Below, one piece after another: positions 7,893-20,963 of a DNA stretch of 20,963 nt. A program made the translations under genes and the position numbers. The notes under the pieces were generated by a model. It saw only the letters and a list, made by a program, of their open reading frames with translations. It did not search any database and was not told the DNA's origin. Source of the stretch: a virus; IMG/VR virus record IMGVR_UViG_3300030107_001143, positions 1-20,963 of that record, one strand, 5' to 3'. How positions within the stretch are numbered: position 1 is the first letter of the stretch; each line of letters starts with the position of its first letter.

Positions 7893-8138
7893 TTATTCAC
7901 CGTCTTCGACATTTAATGATCCAGCATACCAACCTTCTGGTAAAAGAACTGGATTCTTTGATTTCACCCATTGGGTTCCATCATAGTGGTAGACATGGCC
8001 TTTAACGTCATCAGCCAGTCTGATTAAACCATCACTTTCGGGAACGAATACGATCCTGCTGCCTCCGCAACTTACGGCTAAAAGCATTACGAATACGCTT
8101 AGGCACACTAGGAGCATCTTTTGCAGTAGTTTCTTCAT
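7893..8138 (-). CDS. Small lipoprotein, possible outer-membrane spanin
   Basis: I choose the ATG at 8138, giving 81 residues, because it begins a classical lipoprotein signal: two lysines, a hydrophobic segment (about residues 8-22), then A-V-S-C with the modified cysteine at residue 24. The mature part would be about 58 residues and ends near 'LLPEGWYAGSL', a pattern I associate with small phage proteins of unknown function. The frame is open up to 8177, but the longer form would bury the signal. The first 107 bases overlap an out-of-frame 58-residue ORF, an arrangement seen for Rz1-type lipoproteins. Neighbours are a holin candidate upstream and the capsid gene downstream. A spanin role is inferred from context only. 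Confidence 0.65.
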   Translation of the reverse strand: MKKLLQKMLLVCLSVFVMLLAVSCGGSRIVFVPESDGLIRLADDVKGHVYHYDGTQWVKSKNPVLLPEGWYAGSLNVEDGE

Positions 8139-8208
8139 TCGCTTTATCCAATAGTGTTGGTAAAATTTTCTGTACAATTGAACTGATTAAACTGATTAAG
8201 AACGACAT
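8032..8208 (-). CDS. 58-residue protein overlapping the lipoprotein gene
   Basis: This short frame starts at ATG 8208 and ends at TGA 8034-8032. GAGGG lies 7 bases upstream, formed from the last codons of the holin candidate, whose stop is only 3 bases before this ATG. The product begins MSFLISLISSIVQKILPTLL, a hydrophobic or amphipathic N-terminal helix, followed by an acidic linker and a very basic C-terminus ending RRQQDRIRSRK. The final 107 bases are shared, in another frame, with the signal peptide of the lipoprotein. The good ribosome site, tight spacing and hydrophobic N-terminus support a real gene. Function is unknown; an inner-membrane partner of the lipoprotein is one possibility. 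Confidence 0.6.
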   Translation of the reverse strand: MSFLISLISSIVQKILPTLLDKANEETTAKDAPSVPKRIRNAFSRKLRRQQDRIRSRK

Positions 8209-8211
8209 ACA

Positions 8212-8436
8212 TCATCCCTCAGTATCAGATTCCCATTGAGCTTCTTCTTCAGCTTGTTTTTTCTTAACAGAAGCTCGGCTACCTGTATATCCTAAAGCAG
8301 CTAAGGTACTCATAATCATACCTAAAATTTGCCCAAGGCTACTTTCCATAGGAAATGCGCCAGAGGCCATTAAAATTCCTCCGAGCATGGCTCCTGAAGA
8401 TAACCAAAATTCTGTTGATTTATATCCTGGTTTCAT
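8212..8436 (-). CDS. Holin candidate, small two-helix membrane protein
   Basis: This 74-residue protein has two hydrophobic segments, about residues 10-28 (FWLSSGAMLGGILMASGAF) and 33-51 (SLGQILGMIMSTLAALGY), separated by a short turn, then a charged tail (KKKQAEEEAQWES). Two helices with both termini probably cytoplasmic and a charged C-terminus are typical of class II holins, which set the time of lysis by opening the inner membrane. An AGGA site precedes the ATG. It lies between the scaffold gene and the lipoprotein pair, supporting a lysis role. The lysozyme-like gene is far away at 14777-15376, so the lysis genes are split. Membrane topology is clear; holin activity is inferred. Confidence 0.65.
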   Translation of the reverse strand: MKPGYKSTEFWLSSGAMLGGILMASGAFPMESSLGQILGMIMSTLAALGYTGSRASVKKKQAEEEAQWESDTEG

Positions 8437-12423: not shown

Positions 12424-12622
12424 GTATGTCGCCTCCTGCTTCGGCTGCTATACGCGCCATTTCACACAAACCTAAAATACCGTGGTAAGTTCCTTTAAAA
12501 GAAACAACGTAATCATCGACAGTCCCTGTCCTTTTTTGATTACCCACAAAAACAAAATCATCGTATCTTTTTTTTAATTCTAAAATTAATTGATCGGATG
12601 GAATAAAATCAAGATGGCCCAT
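12404..12622 (-). CDS. Hypothetical 72-residue protein
   Basis: No family is recognised. The protein begins MGHLDFIPSDQLILELKKRYDDFVFVG, looks soluble and mixed alpha/beta, and ends in an acidic, His-containing tail (GGDIHEHNIN). It overlaps the homing endonuclease stop by 14 bases and the exonuclease start by 20 bases. The ribosome site (AAAGAAAG) is weak and lies within the homing endonuclease gene, so before insertion of that gene its translation may have depended on the polymerase gene. Compact packing supports a real gene. Confidence 0.6.
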   Translation of the reverse strand: MGHLDFIPSDQLILELKKRYDDFVFVGNQKRTGTVDDYVVSFKGTYHGILGLCEMARIAAEAGGDIHEHNIN

Positions 12623-12986
12623 AATATACTTTCTTTAAAGATTGAAGTTTTCTATAAATCTTTTCATGTTGAGAACTTTTTACTGGGTATTTCTCCCAAT
12701 CCAATAAAGTAATAGCTTGATTACGTTTCTCTTTTAAAAACGGAAGAAGAACTTTAATAAACTGTAAGGCTTTTTTCCCATTAAAAACTGCGACATAACA
12801 AGGACGACCGCCTGTTTTACCTTTACTCCCTAAACAGCATTTAGTAACTTTTTGTAGATATTTAAGAGTAGGGTAATAACACCCTGTTATAGAAACTCTT
12901 GGTTTGAAATACACATTTCCATTTTTACTTGTAGCTTTAGTCAATTGTATACATCCTTCACCATCCATGATCCCAGCATAATACAC
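12609..12986 (-). CDS. LAGLIDADG homing endonuclease
   Basis: I place the start at GTG 12986, four bases after the polymerase stop codon, giving 125 residues; only a weak GAG ribosome site precedes it. The frame is open up to 13151 inside the polymerase gene, and an ATG at 13106 has a GGGGG-type site, so the start is uncertain. The motif VYYAGIMDGEGCIQL (residues 1-15) is a LAGLIDADG motif; the acidic residues in D-G-E-G would bind the catalytic metal. Later 'ALQFIKVLLPFLKEKRNQA' matches the C-terminal helical part of small free-standing members. Only one LAGLIDADG motif is seen, so it should act as a dimer. Such enzymes cut unoccupied alleles so that their gene is copied in. Confidence 0.82.
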   Translation of the reverse strand: MYYAGIMDGEGCIQLTKATSKNGNVYFKPRVSITGCYYPTLKYLQKVTKCCLGSKGKTGGRPCYVAVFNGKKALQFIKVLLPFLKEKRNQAITLLDWEKYPVKSSQHEKIYRKLQSLKKVYYGPS

Positions 12987-12990
12987 AATC

Positions 12991-14802
12991 TCAGTGTGTT
13001 TCAGCCCAATTTTTTCCAGATCGACTCTCCCCATCAAGGGGACATCTGAAAGAAAGCTCGTACCCAGCTCTTCGTATAGCGTCAACACTGAGTTCTCCAA
13101 CTTCATCTTCAATCCCCCTTTCCACTTCAAATTGTACTTCATCGTGTACATGAGCTACTTGTAAAATTTTGTCAGATAATTTATTTTCTTGAAATGCAAC
13201 GTGCATTAACTCAGTAGCTTTTTTCATAATAATTGCACCAGCAGATTGAAGAAGAAGATTCAATGCTGAATGCTGTGATCTCACTGGAAGGTATCTACCA
13301 TCAAGAGCTTTAATAACTTTATTTTCCTTAGCAGTTTTCTTAACAGCTTCTGTTAAATATTTTAAAGCAGGGACTTGTTTAAAAAATTTATTACGAATAG
13401 TCCTACCTTCTCTACGTCCACCATTAATTATTGATCCCAGCTTTTCATCGCCTCCACCATAAATCATGCAATAAATCATAACCTTGGCTTGCGCTCGATC
13501 AGATAAACCAGCCGCCTTTTGATTAGCTGTATGAATATCTCCTTCAAGAAGCTCCTTCACATACTTACCGTTATCCCAAGGAAACATATAATGAGCAAGG
13601 CATCGAAGCTCTAAACCAGAAGCATCTACCCCCACCATCACTTTTCCTTCAGGAACATTAAATAAAGATCGACATTCCTCCCCCCAGGGAGAGCCGACTG
13701 AAGGGACTTGAGCCATATTGCACCTTCGATGGGTACACCTTGATGAGATAGCTCCGTTTGTGTTGACCTCACCGTGGATTCTTCCGTTCTTTTCTAGTTT
13801 AAGCCATGCCTCATTCCCATCACTAAGCATTCCTAATCTTTTCTGAATGGTAAGGAACTTAACTAGATCTTGGGCTTCAGGATATTTAAGAGAAGATAGA
13901 GTAGCTTCATCAACTTTAGGTCTACCTTCTCCAGTAAATTCTTTAGGCTTCCATCCATACTTATTAATAAAAACATTCGCAATTTCCATACGACTTCCTG
14001 GGTTAAAAGGAATAATCTTTTTCTTTAACGGCCCAGGTTCTAAATATTTTCTAACTTCTTTAGGAGCTTCTGTTTTTGTGTCATAAATATCACGAGTGTT
14101 TATATCAAAATAATACTCAGGCTTTTTCATGTGAATAACAGTGGGAGGAAATTCTTTACGCATCTTTGTTTCAATATCTATTTTTTCTGCCACAAGTTTT
14201 GTATATAATTTTTTTGCCCCTTCAACATTAAACCCAATACCATTCCGTTCTTGCTGCCTTATTATGTTGGCAAAAGAATGTTCTAACATTACAACATCTG
14301 GATTTAAATTCTGATCTTCTAAAAGACTCCAAAGAGCAGCAGTCACTCGAACATCTTGTTTACAATATTCCCCCATTTCATCCGTATATTCATCCCATTG
14401 ATTTGATTCTGAAAAATCTCCTTTGAGTATTCCCATACGAACGCCCCAGGCTTTTAGACTATGGCGACCTACTAAAGAATTAGGAAACTCTTTGTTCCTA
14501 AAATCTTCAGTCTTAATATCAGGCCATGCAATTCTTGTCATTAACAATGTATCTCTTATACATCCAGTAGGTTTCCAGTCAGGATAAAAATGTTGAAGGC
14601 ATGGGATATCAAACGAATGTGCATTATGTCCTACTAAAATATCAGCTTTTCTCATGTGTTCTAAAGCCTCTTCTATAGGTAATAACTTAGCGTCTTCATC
14701 CCCCCTATCCATAACCGCTATACAATGAATAGTCTTTAATCCTTGTAAAGTAATAAAGTTATCTATCGCATTTGTTTCAATGTCGAATATTGTTATTTGC
14801 AT
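12991..14802 (-). CDS. DNA polymerase, family A, T7 gp5-like
   Basis: This 603-residue protein has a 3'-5' exonuclease domain with D7 and E9 (FDIETN), D65 (GHNAHSFDIP) and D150 (YCKQDVRVT), and a polymerase domain with motif A D393 (GVDASGLELR), motif B with R436, K440 and Y444 (RAQAKVMIYCMIYGGGDEK), and motif C H553-D554-E555. The C-terminus 'GKNWAETH' resembles T7 'GPNWAICH'. It is about 100 residues shorter than T7 gp5. The thumb segment holding the thioredoxin-binding loop is clearly reduced: only about 50 residues (215-267) precede the conserved FNPGSR. A perfect AAGGAGGT lies 5 bases before the ATG, inside the lysozyme-like gene, whose end it overlaps by 26 bases. Confidence 0.96.
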   Translation of the reverse strand: MQITIFDIETNAIDNFITLQGLKTIHCIAVMDRGDEDAKLLPIEEALEHMRKADILVGHNAHSFDIPCLQHFYPDWKPTGCIRDTLLMTRIAWPDIKTEDFRNKEFPNSLVGRHSLKAWGVRMGILKGDFSESNQWDEYTDEMGEYCKQDVRVTAALWSLLEDQNLNPDVVMLEHSFANIIRQQERNGIGFNVEGAKKLYTKLVAEKIDIETKMRKEFPPTVIHMKKPEYYFDINTRDIYDTKTEAPKEVRKYLEPGPLKKKIIPFNPGSRMEIANVFINKYGWKPKEFTGEGRPKVDEATLSSLKYPEAQDLVKFLTIQKRLGMLSDGNEAWLKLEKNGRIHGEVNTNGAISSRCTHRRCNMAQVPSVGSPWGEECRSLFNVPEGKVMVGVDASGLELRCLAHYMFPWDNGKYVKELLEGDIHTANQKAAGLSDRAQAKVMIYCMIYGGGDEKLGSIINGGRREGRTIRNKFFKQVPALKYLTEAVKKTAKENKVIKALDGRYLPVRSQHSALNLLLQSAGAIIMKKATELMHVAFQENKLSDKILQVAHVHDEVQFEVERGIEDEVGELSVDAIRRAGYELSFRCPLDGESRSGKNWAETH

Positions 14803-15376
14803 TTAACACCTCCTTAATTCGTTTCCAATATTTATTTGTTTTTGTAGAAGTATGGCCATACGGCCCTCCGTTATGGATGCGACACAGGGTTTCTGTATTG
14901 TAATTAGGCGACCACTTATCCCAATACGACATCATAATCCACTCCGCATAATATTGATTAGACACATCTTTATAACTCCCGCCAATTTCAGGCTTATGGT
15001 TAATGGCATCCATCCAATACTCAGGAGTAATTTGGTACGGCCCATACTCCCCCGCATCCCCAGCAGCATGTTCAGGATCTGGGTGTCCACCAGTCTCAAC
15101 TACTCTAATTGCGTTAAACAAACTCCGAGGGTACATCGTCCATATCGTCCAACCCTTTGATGACTTCATGGAGTCTTCCAGTGATTGAATCGTATTCGAG
15201 TGCCGTAGCAATTCCAGTTGTTCCTGCGTATCTATTTTTGAGGACTCTAACATTGAGCGTGTTTCCTTTCTCTGTGCATTGCTGATCTCGTTCAAAACCA
15301 AGAACTGCATCACTAAGTTGAGCGATAGCAGAACTACCGCGCAACTGACTAAGAGATGTTCTTGCTCCTTCTTCAT
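14777..15376 (-). CDS. Lysozyme-like enzyme, possibly membrane-anchored
   Basis: From ATG 15376 the product is 199 residues: an N-terminal membrane segment (about 8-28), a polar helical linker (about 30-75) and a lysozyme-like domain (about 85-195). The domain has AIRVVETGGHPDP (89-101) with E94 as likely catalytic acid, YGPYQITPEYW (111-121) and CRIHNGGPYGH (165-175). The R-I-H-N-G-G-P signature is that of i-type (destabilase) lysozyme-like proteins, so peptidoglycan is the expected substrate. GGGAG lies 5 bases before 15376. However, residues 1 to about 87 are encoded out of frame inside the helicase gene, so a shorter product from ATG 15169 (after a GGAAG) is possible. The domain is certain, the start is not. 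Confidence 0.75.
   Translation of the reverse strand: MKKEQEHLLVSCAVVLLSLNLVMQFLVLNEISNAQRKETRSMLESSKIDTQEQLELLRHSNTIQSLEDSMKSSKGWTIWTMYPRSLFNAIRVVETGGHPDPEHAAGDAGEYGPYQITPEYWMDAINHKPEIGGSYKDVSNQYYAEWIMMSYWDKWSPNYNTETLCRIHNGGPYGHTSTKTNKYWKRIKEVLNANNNIRH
14808..14815 (-). promoter_or_regulatory. Strong ribosome binding site of the DNA polymerase gene
   Basis: AAGGAGGT on the minus strand is a perfect anti-16S match 5 bases before the polymerase ATG at 14802. It lies inside the last codons of the lysozyme-like gene. It is one of the strongest ribosome sites in the replication block, where several neighbours have weak sites and non-ATG starts. Confidence 0.85.
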
Positions 15377-16781
15377 GGCCTCTCCCTTCTGGACGTTTTA
15401 AATGACTCACTAAAATCATGGCACAATTTGTTTCTTCTACTAAAGAACGAAGTCTAGTCATTGTATTATCAATAAGTCGGCGTTCATCACCTTCAGCTAT
15501 ACCACTGACAACAATACTTAAATGATCTAAAAATATAACTTGGCACTCCATTGACTTAGCCATGTATCTAACTTGATTAATAAGATTATCTGAACTTGTT
15601 GAACCCCAGTGATCATATAAAACCATTCGACCCGAACCTACTGAGGCATCAAACGCTTCTCTCTTCATTTCTTCCGTCACCCCACGATTCTTCCATTCAG
15701 GTGGCGGGATATTAAGATGAATTCCCATAATACCTTCAGCCGTTCTTTTAACACTTTCTTCTAAAGCAATGTACCCAACCTTATGACCGTCCATAATTAA
15801 AGAGTAACATAGCTCCCGACACACTGAAGATTTTCCTATACCTGTACCTGATGTAAGAGTAATTAATTCCCCACTTCTCATCCCATAAAGCATTCTATTA
15901 AACCCAGCCCAAGGGTAATTAATAGATGCTACATCCTTATCTTCAATAATAACATCCCATAATTCTTCCCCAGGGATGACTCCATCAGGTGTCCAAATCT
16001 TAGCATTCCAAATACAGTTAATTAATTCTTTCCCCTTATTCATCATTAAACATTCATTCGCATCTTTCTCTGGTAATGATTGAACTATAGACGCTTTACC
16101 TGGGGATAAAACATTAGCGCATTCAACTGCCGCTTTCTTTCCTGGGGTGTCCATATCAAAACAGAAGACAACATTTTCAAAACTTTCTAACCATTTAGAA
16201 TGATAAGCTACACTTCTAGCAGCACCCGCCGCTCCGTTTGGAATAGAAACAACAGGCCATTTGTTATCTTGAAGTTGACTGATTGACAGACAATCTATCT
16301 CCCCTTCTGTAACAACAATTCTTTTACCGCCTTCTTTCCATAGATGCTGTCCGAATAAGTTTAAGTTTTTACTTTGACCTATGATTCTAAAGTCTTTGTT
16401 TTGAAACCGTAACTTCTGGGCAACCTCATGTCCTTCATCGTTGTGATAAGACATAACATGAACAGGGTTCCCCTTGTAATTACCAACTGAATATCCAAAC
16501 TTTCTACAAGTAGTCTCTTTGATTGATCTTTTTTCTAAATGAATAAATTCTTTTTCATTAATTAAATCACTAGCCATCCTTGACTCCTTCTTTATCGGCT
16601 CTCCATCAGCATGTTCATAATGATTACAGCCGAAACAAAACCCATGCCCATCCGAGTACCTTGCCAAGTTGTCCTTTGATTTACAATTAGGACATGGCTC
16701 ATGTTGTACAAAACTACTGTGAGTTTCTGAATCTATAATTCTTTGATTTGCAGTTCTATTGATGGCTGATCCTTCGCCCAC
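15114..16781 (-). CDS. Primase-helicase, T7 gp4-like
   Basis: I choose GTG 16781, giving 555 residues, because GGAG lies 7 bases upstream; a TTG at 16826 lacks a good site. In order: zinc ribbon C30/C33...C49/C52 (CPNCKS...CFGC), TOPRIM primase domain with E160 (VTEGEID) and D209/D211 (CFDMD), then a RecA-type ring helicase with Walker A SGTGIGKSS (311-319), Walker B D419 (VIFLDH) and KNRYAGTTG near 515-523, comparable to T7's arginine-finger region. The acidic C-terminus (DDMDDVPSEFV) fits the T7 tail that contacts DNA polymerase. T7 gp4A is 566 residues. It makes primers and unwinds DNA at the fork. The start lies within the RusA gene and the end contains the start of the lysozyme-like gene. 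Confidence 0.93.
   Translation of the reverse strand: MGEGSAINRTANQRIIDSETHSSFVQHEPCPNCKSKDNLARYSDGHGFCFGCNHYEHADGEPIKKESRMASDLINEKEFIHLEKRSIKETTCRKFGYSVGNYKGNPVHVMSYHNDEGHEVAQKLRFQNKDFRIIGQSKNLNLFGQHLWKEGGKRIVVTEGEIDCLSISQLQDNKWPVVSIPNGAAGAARSVAYHSKWLESFENVVFCFDMDTPGKKAAVECANVLSPGKASIVQSLPEKDANECLMMNKGKELINCIWNAKIWTPDGVIPGEELWDVIIEDKDVASINYPWAGFNRMLYGMRSGELITLTSGTGIGKSSVCRELCYSLIMDGHKVGYIALEESVKRTAEGIMGIHLNIPPPEWKNRGVTEEMKREAFDASVGSGRMVLYDHWGSTSSDNLINQVRYMAKSMECQVIFLDHLSIVVSGIAEGDERRLIDNTMTRLRSLVEETNCAMILVSHLKRPEGRGHEEGARTSLSQLRGSSAIAQLSDAVLGFERDQQCTEKGNTLNVRVLKNRYAGTTGIATALEYDSITGRLHEVIKGLDDMDDVPSEFV
16575..16590 (-). promoter_or_regulatory. Internal translation start for a helicase-only form (gp4B-like)
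   Basis: Within the primase-helicase gene, GAAGGAG (16590-16584) lies 6 bases before an in-frame ATG at 16577. Initiation there would give a 487-residue protein beginning MASDLINEKEF that lacks the zinc ribbon but keeps the TOPRIM and helicase domains. T7 makes exactly such a short form (gp4B) from an internal start shortly after its zinc domain. This internal ribosome site is better than that of the full-length start. Confidence 0.75.
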
Positions 16782-17107
16782 TTTTTCTCTCCATGAATAA
16801 TCACAATTTGAACATCGTCTTTCCAAACAACACCGTTTAAAATATCAAGAGTTTTTAAGTAGTTATCTATGTCACCTCTCGGATGTTTTAATTTTGATGT
16901 CTTTGGTTTTTTAACATGAAAGGTTGCGCTTACTTCAAGCTGCCCCAAGAGCGGTAAGGTAATGTCAGGAAGAGACTCTGGAAGAACTGACACTACCTTA
17001 ACCGCGTCTTTTCTAAATTCTGTGTACTTCTTGCCGTAATAAACTCCCCACCGAGTTACCCTCGGCCTTGAAGCTGGCACAGGATTCAGATCAAGGGAGA
17101 GATTCAA
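16733..17107 (-). CDS. RusA-type Holliday junction resolvase
   Basis: This 124-residue protein begins with an N-terminal 'NPVPASRPRVT' (8-18) and has the RusA signature HPRGDIDNYLKTLDILNGV (75-93) followed by WKDDVQI (95-101). D79, D81 and D98 (or D97) would bind metal and K85 matches the conserved lysine. E. coli RusA is 120 residues. The enzyme cuts four-way DNA junctions, in T7 terms the job of endonuclease I (gene 3), which is not seen here. The start is TTG at 17107, overlapping the stop of the ssDNA-binding gene (TTGA). A weak GAG lies upstream, so translation is probably coupled. A GTG nine codons later is a less likely start. Confidence 0.9.
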   Translation of the reverse strand: MNLSLDLNPVPASRPRVTRWGVYYGKKYTEFRKDAVKVVSVLPESLPDITLPLLGQLEVSATFHVKKPKTSKLKHPRGDIDNYLKTLDILNGVVWKDDVQIVIIHGEKKWAKDQPSIELQIKEL

Positions 17108-20155: not shown

Positions 20156-20963
20156 TTATTTAGAGTGTACCATATTATCCAAACGACTGACTGCATCTAT
20201 AAAATTATCAGGACAAAGATGCGTGTATTTTAAAGTCATTCTTTCTGACTTATGACCCGCTAGTTTTTTAATGATAGGAAACGGTGTCCCCAACTGAGCA
20301 AGCCTACTAATATAAGTATGCCTACATGTATGAGGAACAAAGTTTTTATCAGACTGCATGTTCAAATGCTCCCTCATCTTACCCCATGCTGTCCTCAACC
20401 CCTGTTTAGTTACATTCTCAAACGGTTTCTTCTTGTTGCCCCTTAATAATTTAAGAATATCTTTCACTCTCCTAGTTAAAGGCACAGCTCTAGGCTCATC
20501 ATTCTTAGTCTTATCAATCGTAATCATCTTTTTATCTATGTCACTCCACCGAACACCCATAGCTTCTGACACCCGAAACCCCGTATCGCATAGAAACACT
20601 ACGAAATAAGCATACTCCTGATACCCAAACTCTTCTAAAGTATCAGTGATTCTCCTCTCTTCCTTTAAATCAAACCATCGAACACGCCCCACAGGCTCTT
20701 TAAGTTTTCTTATCTTAGGTTTATTTTTAATAGCCCCTATATCAATAGCAACATTCAACATCTTTGATAACGCGCTCAGTTTCCTGTTGATAGTAGCGTT
20801 GGAATTCCCCTCCTCTTTTAATTCAGATATCAGTTGATTGATTAAATCATTATCGACATCACAAATCAAGGTGTCTTCCCCCAGGAATTCAGTCACAATG
20901 TCCCCATTGATGTAGGAAGTTTCCTCACTCTTACTCCCCCTCCAATAGTGATTGTAGGTATAA
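20156..20963 (-). CDS. Tyrosine integrase (5' end cut by window edge)
   Basis: The frame is open to the right edge, so the GTG at 20896 is not the true start: 22 more in-frame residues (including HYWRGSKSEETSYI) precede it and fit the N-terminal core-binding domain. About 268 residues are visible. Counting from the GTG codon as 1, the catalytic set is complete: R108 (CDTGFRVSEA), K131 (IDKTKNDEPRAVP), H189 and R192 (HTCRHTY), H215 (LAGHKSERM) and nucleophile Y224 (LKYTHL). The enzyme inserts the phage genome at an attachment site and, with partners, excises it. It sits directly upstream of the RNA polymerase on the same strand. No attachment site or tRNA fragment is visible in the 57-base gap; it may lie outside the window. 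Confidence 0.95.
   Translation of the reverse strand, partial: YTYNHYWRGSKSEETSYINGDIVTEFLGEDTLICDVDNDLINQLISELKEEGNSNATINRKLSALSKMLNVAIDIGAIKNKPKIRKLKEPVGRVRWFDLKEERRITDTLEEFGYQEYAYFVVFLCDTGFRVSEAMGVRWSDIDKKMITIDKTKNDEPRAVPLTRRVKDILKLLRGNKKKPFENVTKQGLRTAWGKMREHLNMQSDKNFVPHTCRHTYISRLAQLGTPFPIIKKLAGHKSERMTLKYTHLCPDNFIDAVSRLDNMVHSK

Follow-up and report, generated by a model that had tools for sequence, protein, structure and literature searches.

The DNA analysed here, a virus record of 20,963 bases hereafter called the window, belongs to a marine phage and has a T7-like gene order: integrase, an ORF of RNA polymerase size, Gp2.5-like SSB, RusA, primase-helicase, lysozyme, DNA polymerase, exonuclease, portal, scaffold, capsid, tail and internal virion proteins. 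Its closest named relatives are T7-like phages of Roseobacter and Pelagibacter, with helicase identities of about 50%. The integrase gene (20156–20962, minus strand) adjoins the RNA polymerase-sized ORF at the window edge, which suggests a temperate T7-like phage.

The primase-helicase gene (15114–16826, minus strand) is of T7 type, as judged by its matches to PHROG 239 (E 1e-184) and to the Pfam DnaB_C and T7 helicase-primase N domains. Its 3′ end hosts the long form of the lysozyme gene (14777–15376, minus strand; 199 amino acids), which shares 263 bases with it, stop codon included, in the +1 frame, as the original prediction had stated. Only one second carrier of this overlap was found in viral contigs, which were searched by gene, by domain and by a DNA pattern spanning the junction. 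This 4.6 kb contig, L002, has a helicase 79% and a lysozyme 61% identical to those of the window. No match to the lysozyme was obtained at E 0.01 among 50,697 phage records, and bacterial and archaeal genomes gave a single distant planctomycete match, with no helicase adjoining in the part read.

Two other overlaps were observed in this region. As listed, the helicase ORF begins with a TTG, and its first part lies over the end of the RusA gene (16733–16826, minus strand); in its first 40 codons, synonymous change relative to L002 is seen in only 1 of 20 comparable codons. Either this 5′ end is constrained by RusA or the true helicase start lies further in. An HNH endonuclease-like gene (12609–13151, minus strand) overlaps the 3′ end of the polymerase gene, and a similar ORF occupies the same place in L002 (3786–4280).

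The window encodes a real i-type (destabilase) lysozyme domain, located downstream of the helicase stop (14780–15115, minus strand). The product matches Pfam Destabilase PF05497 (E 1.5e-6) with 28.8 bits, above the gathering cut-off of 26.2, and the L002 lysozyme scores just under it (22.9–24.8 bits). A profile built from the two lysozyme domains matches i-type lysozymes of the PDB with E values of 1e-9 to 1e-6. All six top Foldseek matches of the AlphaFold model belong to the i-type lysozymes (E 1.6e-6 to 9e-5), with leech destabilase (8bbu) first and the Tapes japonica lysozyme (2dqa) also among the best. In the model of the long form, a single helix covers residues 2–59 and a low-confidence stretch residues 61–79, and the domain, with pLDDT mostly around 90, begins at about residues 80–84. 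Since the helicase stop coincides with lysozyme codons 87–88, the domain does start almost exactly where the helicase ends, as had been noticed. The likeness to 8bbu and 2dqa concerns the sequence and predicted fold of residues ~84–197, the part matching Pfam Destabilase; the window protein differs in being the product of a phage gene, in having two cysteines in total and in its very long N-terminal helix. I-type lysozymes use a catalytic Glu and Asp pair. In the four sequences compared, Glu94 does not vary, and Asp107, the acidic residue that seems nearest to the expected catalytic Asp, is Met in L002. The two cysteines of the window protein are residues 12, in the hydrophobic segment, and 165, in the catalytic domain; in the L002 protein, too, segment and domain each contain one, although not at the same positions. 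Regulation of P1 Lyz runs through a cysteine in its SAR segment.

The slot between helicase and polymerase, filled by the lysozyme in the window, holds unrelated small genes in the relatives, and in many of them these genes begin at most ~20 bases from the helicase stop. The related phages checked have an Amidase_2-type lysis gene between their endonuclease and helicase genes. This T7 gp3.5-type amidase of Pelagibacter and Roseobacter T7-like phages probably has the same lysis role as the window lysozyme, but it is an unrelated enzyme and its gene is upstream of the helicase. No amidase is present between the endonuclease and helicase genes of the window, and the frame 14777–15376 is its sole recognisable endolysin. 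Because the usual amidase is absent, the lysozyme is likely the endolysin of this phage.

Several ATG codons could start the lysozyme frame. The one at 15376 is preceded, as predicted, by GGGAG with a 5-nt spacer, and this Shine-Dalgarno region (AGAAGGGAGAGGCC; 15377–15389, minus strand) forms an anti-SD duplex of −8.4 kcal/mol in the window, among the stronger starts there, and of −10.7 kcal/mol in L002. The ATG itself sits in the helicase motif GRGHEEG, is made by conserved His-Glu-Glu-Gly codons (CAT GAA GAA) and occurs also in relatives in which the frame is closed, so that alone it is weak evidence. An internal ATG (Met42; 15251–15253, minus strand) is kept in L002, with an AAGGA element ~9 nt upstream (−5.6/−5.4 kcal/mol) that is weaker and more distant than the Shine-Dalgarno at 15376. 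Further in-frame ATGs at 15169 and 15136, also kept in L002, have weak or badly spaced Shine-Dalgarno sites. Since the lysozyme frame runs continuously for ~200 codons, alongside the helicase tail, a helicase-lysozyme fusion made by ribosomal frameshifting could in principle be imagined; we regard it as extremely improbable, as the good Shine-Dalgarno and start codon make it unneeded.

Most helicase homologues without this lysozyme carry 2–6 stops in the same stretch of the alternative frame. The exceptions are L004/L005, L008 and L014, the alternative frame of the last two looking GC-rich. In L004 and L005 the +1 frame stays free of stops for 54 codons, counted from the same ATG, and in L005 no lysozyme follows; this pair is an example of chance openness.

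Evidence for coding in both frames comes from residues 41–87 (15114–15256, minus strand), that is, the polar helical linker and first domain residues lying over helicase codons 523–569. Between the window and L002, synonymous change from helicase codon 524 to the stop is seen at 8/34 codons (0.24) compared to 155/349 (0.44) in the helicase body (Fisher P=0.019), and fourfold sites have changed at 2/15 positions (0.13) compared to 72/130 (0.55; Fisher P=0.002). In a neutral simulation keeping both helicase proteins, the alternative-frame BLOSUM score of residues 41–87 (158) far exceeded the null (92 ± 18; P<0.001 one way and 0.002 the other), and conservation in the lysozyme frame was also detected for residues 42–69 (P ~0.01–0.02). 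Codon usage is likewise unusual. In the tail, leucine is encoded by CTC at 4 of 5 codons in the window and 3 of 4 in L002, compared to 0/31 and 0/35 in the respective helicase bodies; the window figure of 4/5 also contrasts with 5/266 elsewhere. CTC gives Ser in the lysozyme frame, while TTA or CTA before A or G would create stops there; these rare codons therefore keep the lysozyme frame open. As judged by substitution patterns, selection acts on both frames over residues 41–87, which is not found for residues 1–40.

These observations bear on the start at 15169, which the original prediction had offered as the alternative to 15376. If translation began at 15169 or 15136, near the helicase stop, the whole upstream frame would be open by chance and the low divergence of the tail would reflect recombination or helicase constraint. 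The ATGs at both positions are conserved, the slot genes of many relatives start close to the helicase stop, and recombination-like blocks lie over this tail in other pairs of the clade. However, amino-acid change in the helicase tail is not reduced while synonymous change falls, which argues against simple recency or a recent recombination block; tail substitutions are shifted to helicase first positions, a shift that is not significant alone (P 0.08). The lysozyme-frame conservation of residues 42–69 and the CTC codons recurring from Ser41 also speak against it, as do the poor Shine-Dalgarno sites. As the selected stretch starts well upstream of 15169, this start is less likely than those at 15376 or 15253, and we consider it improbable. 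Low synonymous change as a general property of helicase tails was also considered and rejected, since in pairs without the lysozyme (L003/L006, L011/L012 and L013/L015) the tails diverge nearly as much as the bodies; the exceptions are pairs with recombinant-looking tails.

The proposed membrane anchor, residues 1–41 (15254–15376, minus strand; helicase codons 483–523), consists of the ATG and a hydrophobic segment, open in the window and in L002, which could serve as anchor or export signal. The window does encode a hydrophobic segment ahead of the polar linker and domain: residues 7–29 form a 23-residue run without D, E, K or R, and the best 19-residue Kyte-Doolittle mean is 2.33. In L002 the ATG, the strong Shine-Dalgarno and the open frame persist, but the hydrophobicity is weakened, with a short run containing Arg15 and a best 19-residue mean of 1.05; its 12-residue hydropathy is nonetheless the second highest among the loci compared. 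Thus, of the two signs against an anchor named beforehand, stop codons or lost hydrophobicity in a relative with an intact lysozyme domain, the first is absent from L002 and the second is partly present.

We estimated what chance alone would give by fixing the helicase protein and drawing codons at genome usage. The first 41 codons of the +1 frame are then free of stops in 2.9% of draws for the window and 5.5% for L002, with a chance of ~0.15 that one genome is open given that the other is. Given openness, the 19-residue hydropathy of the window has P=0.0034, although the window P-values are inflated, the site having been picked for being open and hydrophobic. L002 provides the independent part, and its hydropathy is within chance (P 0.16–0.24). 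No other open 41-codon +1 stretch in five sampled window genes reaches a mean of 2.33, the nearest being 2.24. The L002 data lend modest support to openness and next to none to hydrophobicity.

Comparison of the two genomes did not reveal constraint on this segment. A drop in synonymous change had been suggested as a check on the helicase 3′ end; it is seen from codon 524 on but not in codons 483–523, where synonymous change (21/35) is not below that of the body and substitutions fall mostly at third positions, the normal pattern. Alternative-frame identity over residues 1–41 is 16/41 compared to a neutral expectation of 19–20, the BLOSUM score between window and L002 is below the null mean (P 0.82–0.96), and their hydropathy profiles are not conserved beyond the null (P 0.29–0.38). 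The original idea of an anchor made by overprinting is therefore borne out in part. Overprinting itself is supported by residues 41–87, and the anchor, only indirectly, by the features kept in L002, by a window hydropathy beyond codon chance and by signal-like N-termini in phage relatives of the domain; against the anchor stand the missing constraint on residues 1–40 and the Arg-interrupted run of L002.

The main rival to a start at 15376 is a start at Met42 (15253), giving a protein of 158 amino acids, a polar linker with an i-type lysozyme, that would be cytoplasmic and released by a holin, the upstream hydrophobic frame being untranslated and partly accidental. Lysozyme-frame constraint begins within one codon of this ATG, which L002 keeps together with its AAGGA element; the anchor segment lacks constraint and conserved hydropathy, and a holin-like gene is present in the window. 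Yet the Shine-Dalgarno is the poorer one, and neither genome has a stop in the upstream frame, whose hydropathy in the window is exceptional. Moreover, the CTC run starts at Ser41, one residue before Met42, and this rare codon is conserved in L002, which hints at a translation start further upstream. We consider a start at 15253 rather unlikely.

Known SAR endolysins include P1 Lyz, phage 21 R and the endolysin of phiKMV, a T7-like phage with a pinholin (PMC6116005; for phiKMV also PMC7312051). The window protein resembles them in its T7-like background, as in phiKMV, in a possible small holin partner encoded elsewhere and in a predicted N-terminal hydrophobic helix before a muralytic domain, although the corresponding segment of L002 is weak and interrupted by Arg. 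It differs in its i-type/destabilase domain and in having its N-terminus inside a helicase gene. SAR segments are weakly hydrophobic, Gly/Ala-rich and able to leave the membrane. The window segment (LLVSCAVVLLSLNLVMQFLVL) is Leu/Val-rich, has no Gly and does not fit this description; its composition is closer to that of a stable membrane anchor than to that of a SAR segment able to detach. Two other phage-borne relatives of the domain, the lysozyme of Cellulophaga phage Calle_1 (QQV89760, annotated Destabilase-like) and that of IMG/VR contig L038, have their own short signal-like N-termini, but are stand-alone genes without helicase overprinting. Signal-anchored endolysins in T7-like phages, destabilase-type phage lysozymes (Calle_1) and gene overlaps are thus each already known. 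A literature search for overprinted SAR endolysins gave no specific hit, nor was the combination of a signal-anchored endolysin, a destabilase domain and an N-terminus inside a helicase gene found in the literature searched.

A candidate lysis partner lies between the scaffold and capsid genes. The 74-amino-acid product of 8212–8436 (minus strand), holin-like as judged from sequence reading and hydropathy only, combines two weakly hydrophobic segments with a charged C-terminus. It matched nothing significantly in Pfam and nothing in phage records; its features suggest a possible pinholin partner, as in phiKMV. Known SAR endolysins have pinholins as partners (PMC6116005, PMC7312051). For this reason, and because the window has a holin-like gene, the idea that an anchored lysozyme can do without a holin carries little weight here. 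The region 7893–8436 (minus strand) holds three small ORFs: the holin-like one, one of 58 amino acids (8032–8208) and an overlapping third with a lipobox-like LLAVSCGG, ending at 7893. Together they resemble a holin/spanin cassette in layout, with no significant Pfam match for any of the three and no phage-record match for the holin-like and lipobox ORFs.

Taken together, these results favor, with a probability of roughly 55%, translation of an N-terminal extension starting at 15376, by which the lysozyme is targeted or anchored to the membrane. The T7-like phage would carry its i-type lysozyme gene in the variable helicase-polymerase slot and translate it from the ATG inside the helicase gene, using the strong Shine-Dalgarno. 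The first ~30 residues would form a hydrophobic helix leading to inner membrane insertion or to the Sec route, and residues 31–80 a polar helical tether. The catalytic domain would sit in the periplasm under restraint until membrane depolarisation, which the holin-like product of 8212–8436 would probably bring about. The start at 15376 and membrane targeting are supported rather than demonstrated; we only infer the topology, how the enzyme is released or activated, and its part in lysis. It is possible, at somewhat below even odds, that the endolysin anchor was gained de novo by overprinting the helicase 3′ end, before a captured animal-type domain whose own signal peptide had been lost. Such an anchor could drift freely as long as its frame remained open and hydrophobic, as far as the helicase protein allows.

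Should translation cover the linker alone, the locus would be an ordinary, well-supported gene overlap of ~140 bases. If the anchor is real, it would clearly exemplify a targeting signal that arose within an essential gene. Its history could be tested, since stops close this frame in most related helicase genes that lack the lysozyme, and an i-type lysozyme would join the signal-anchored endolysins of T7-like phages.
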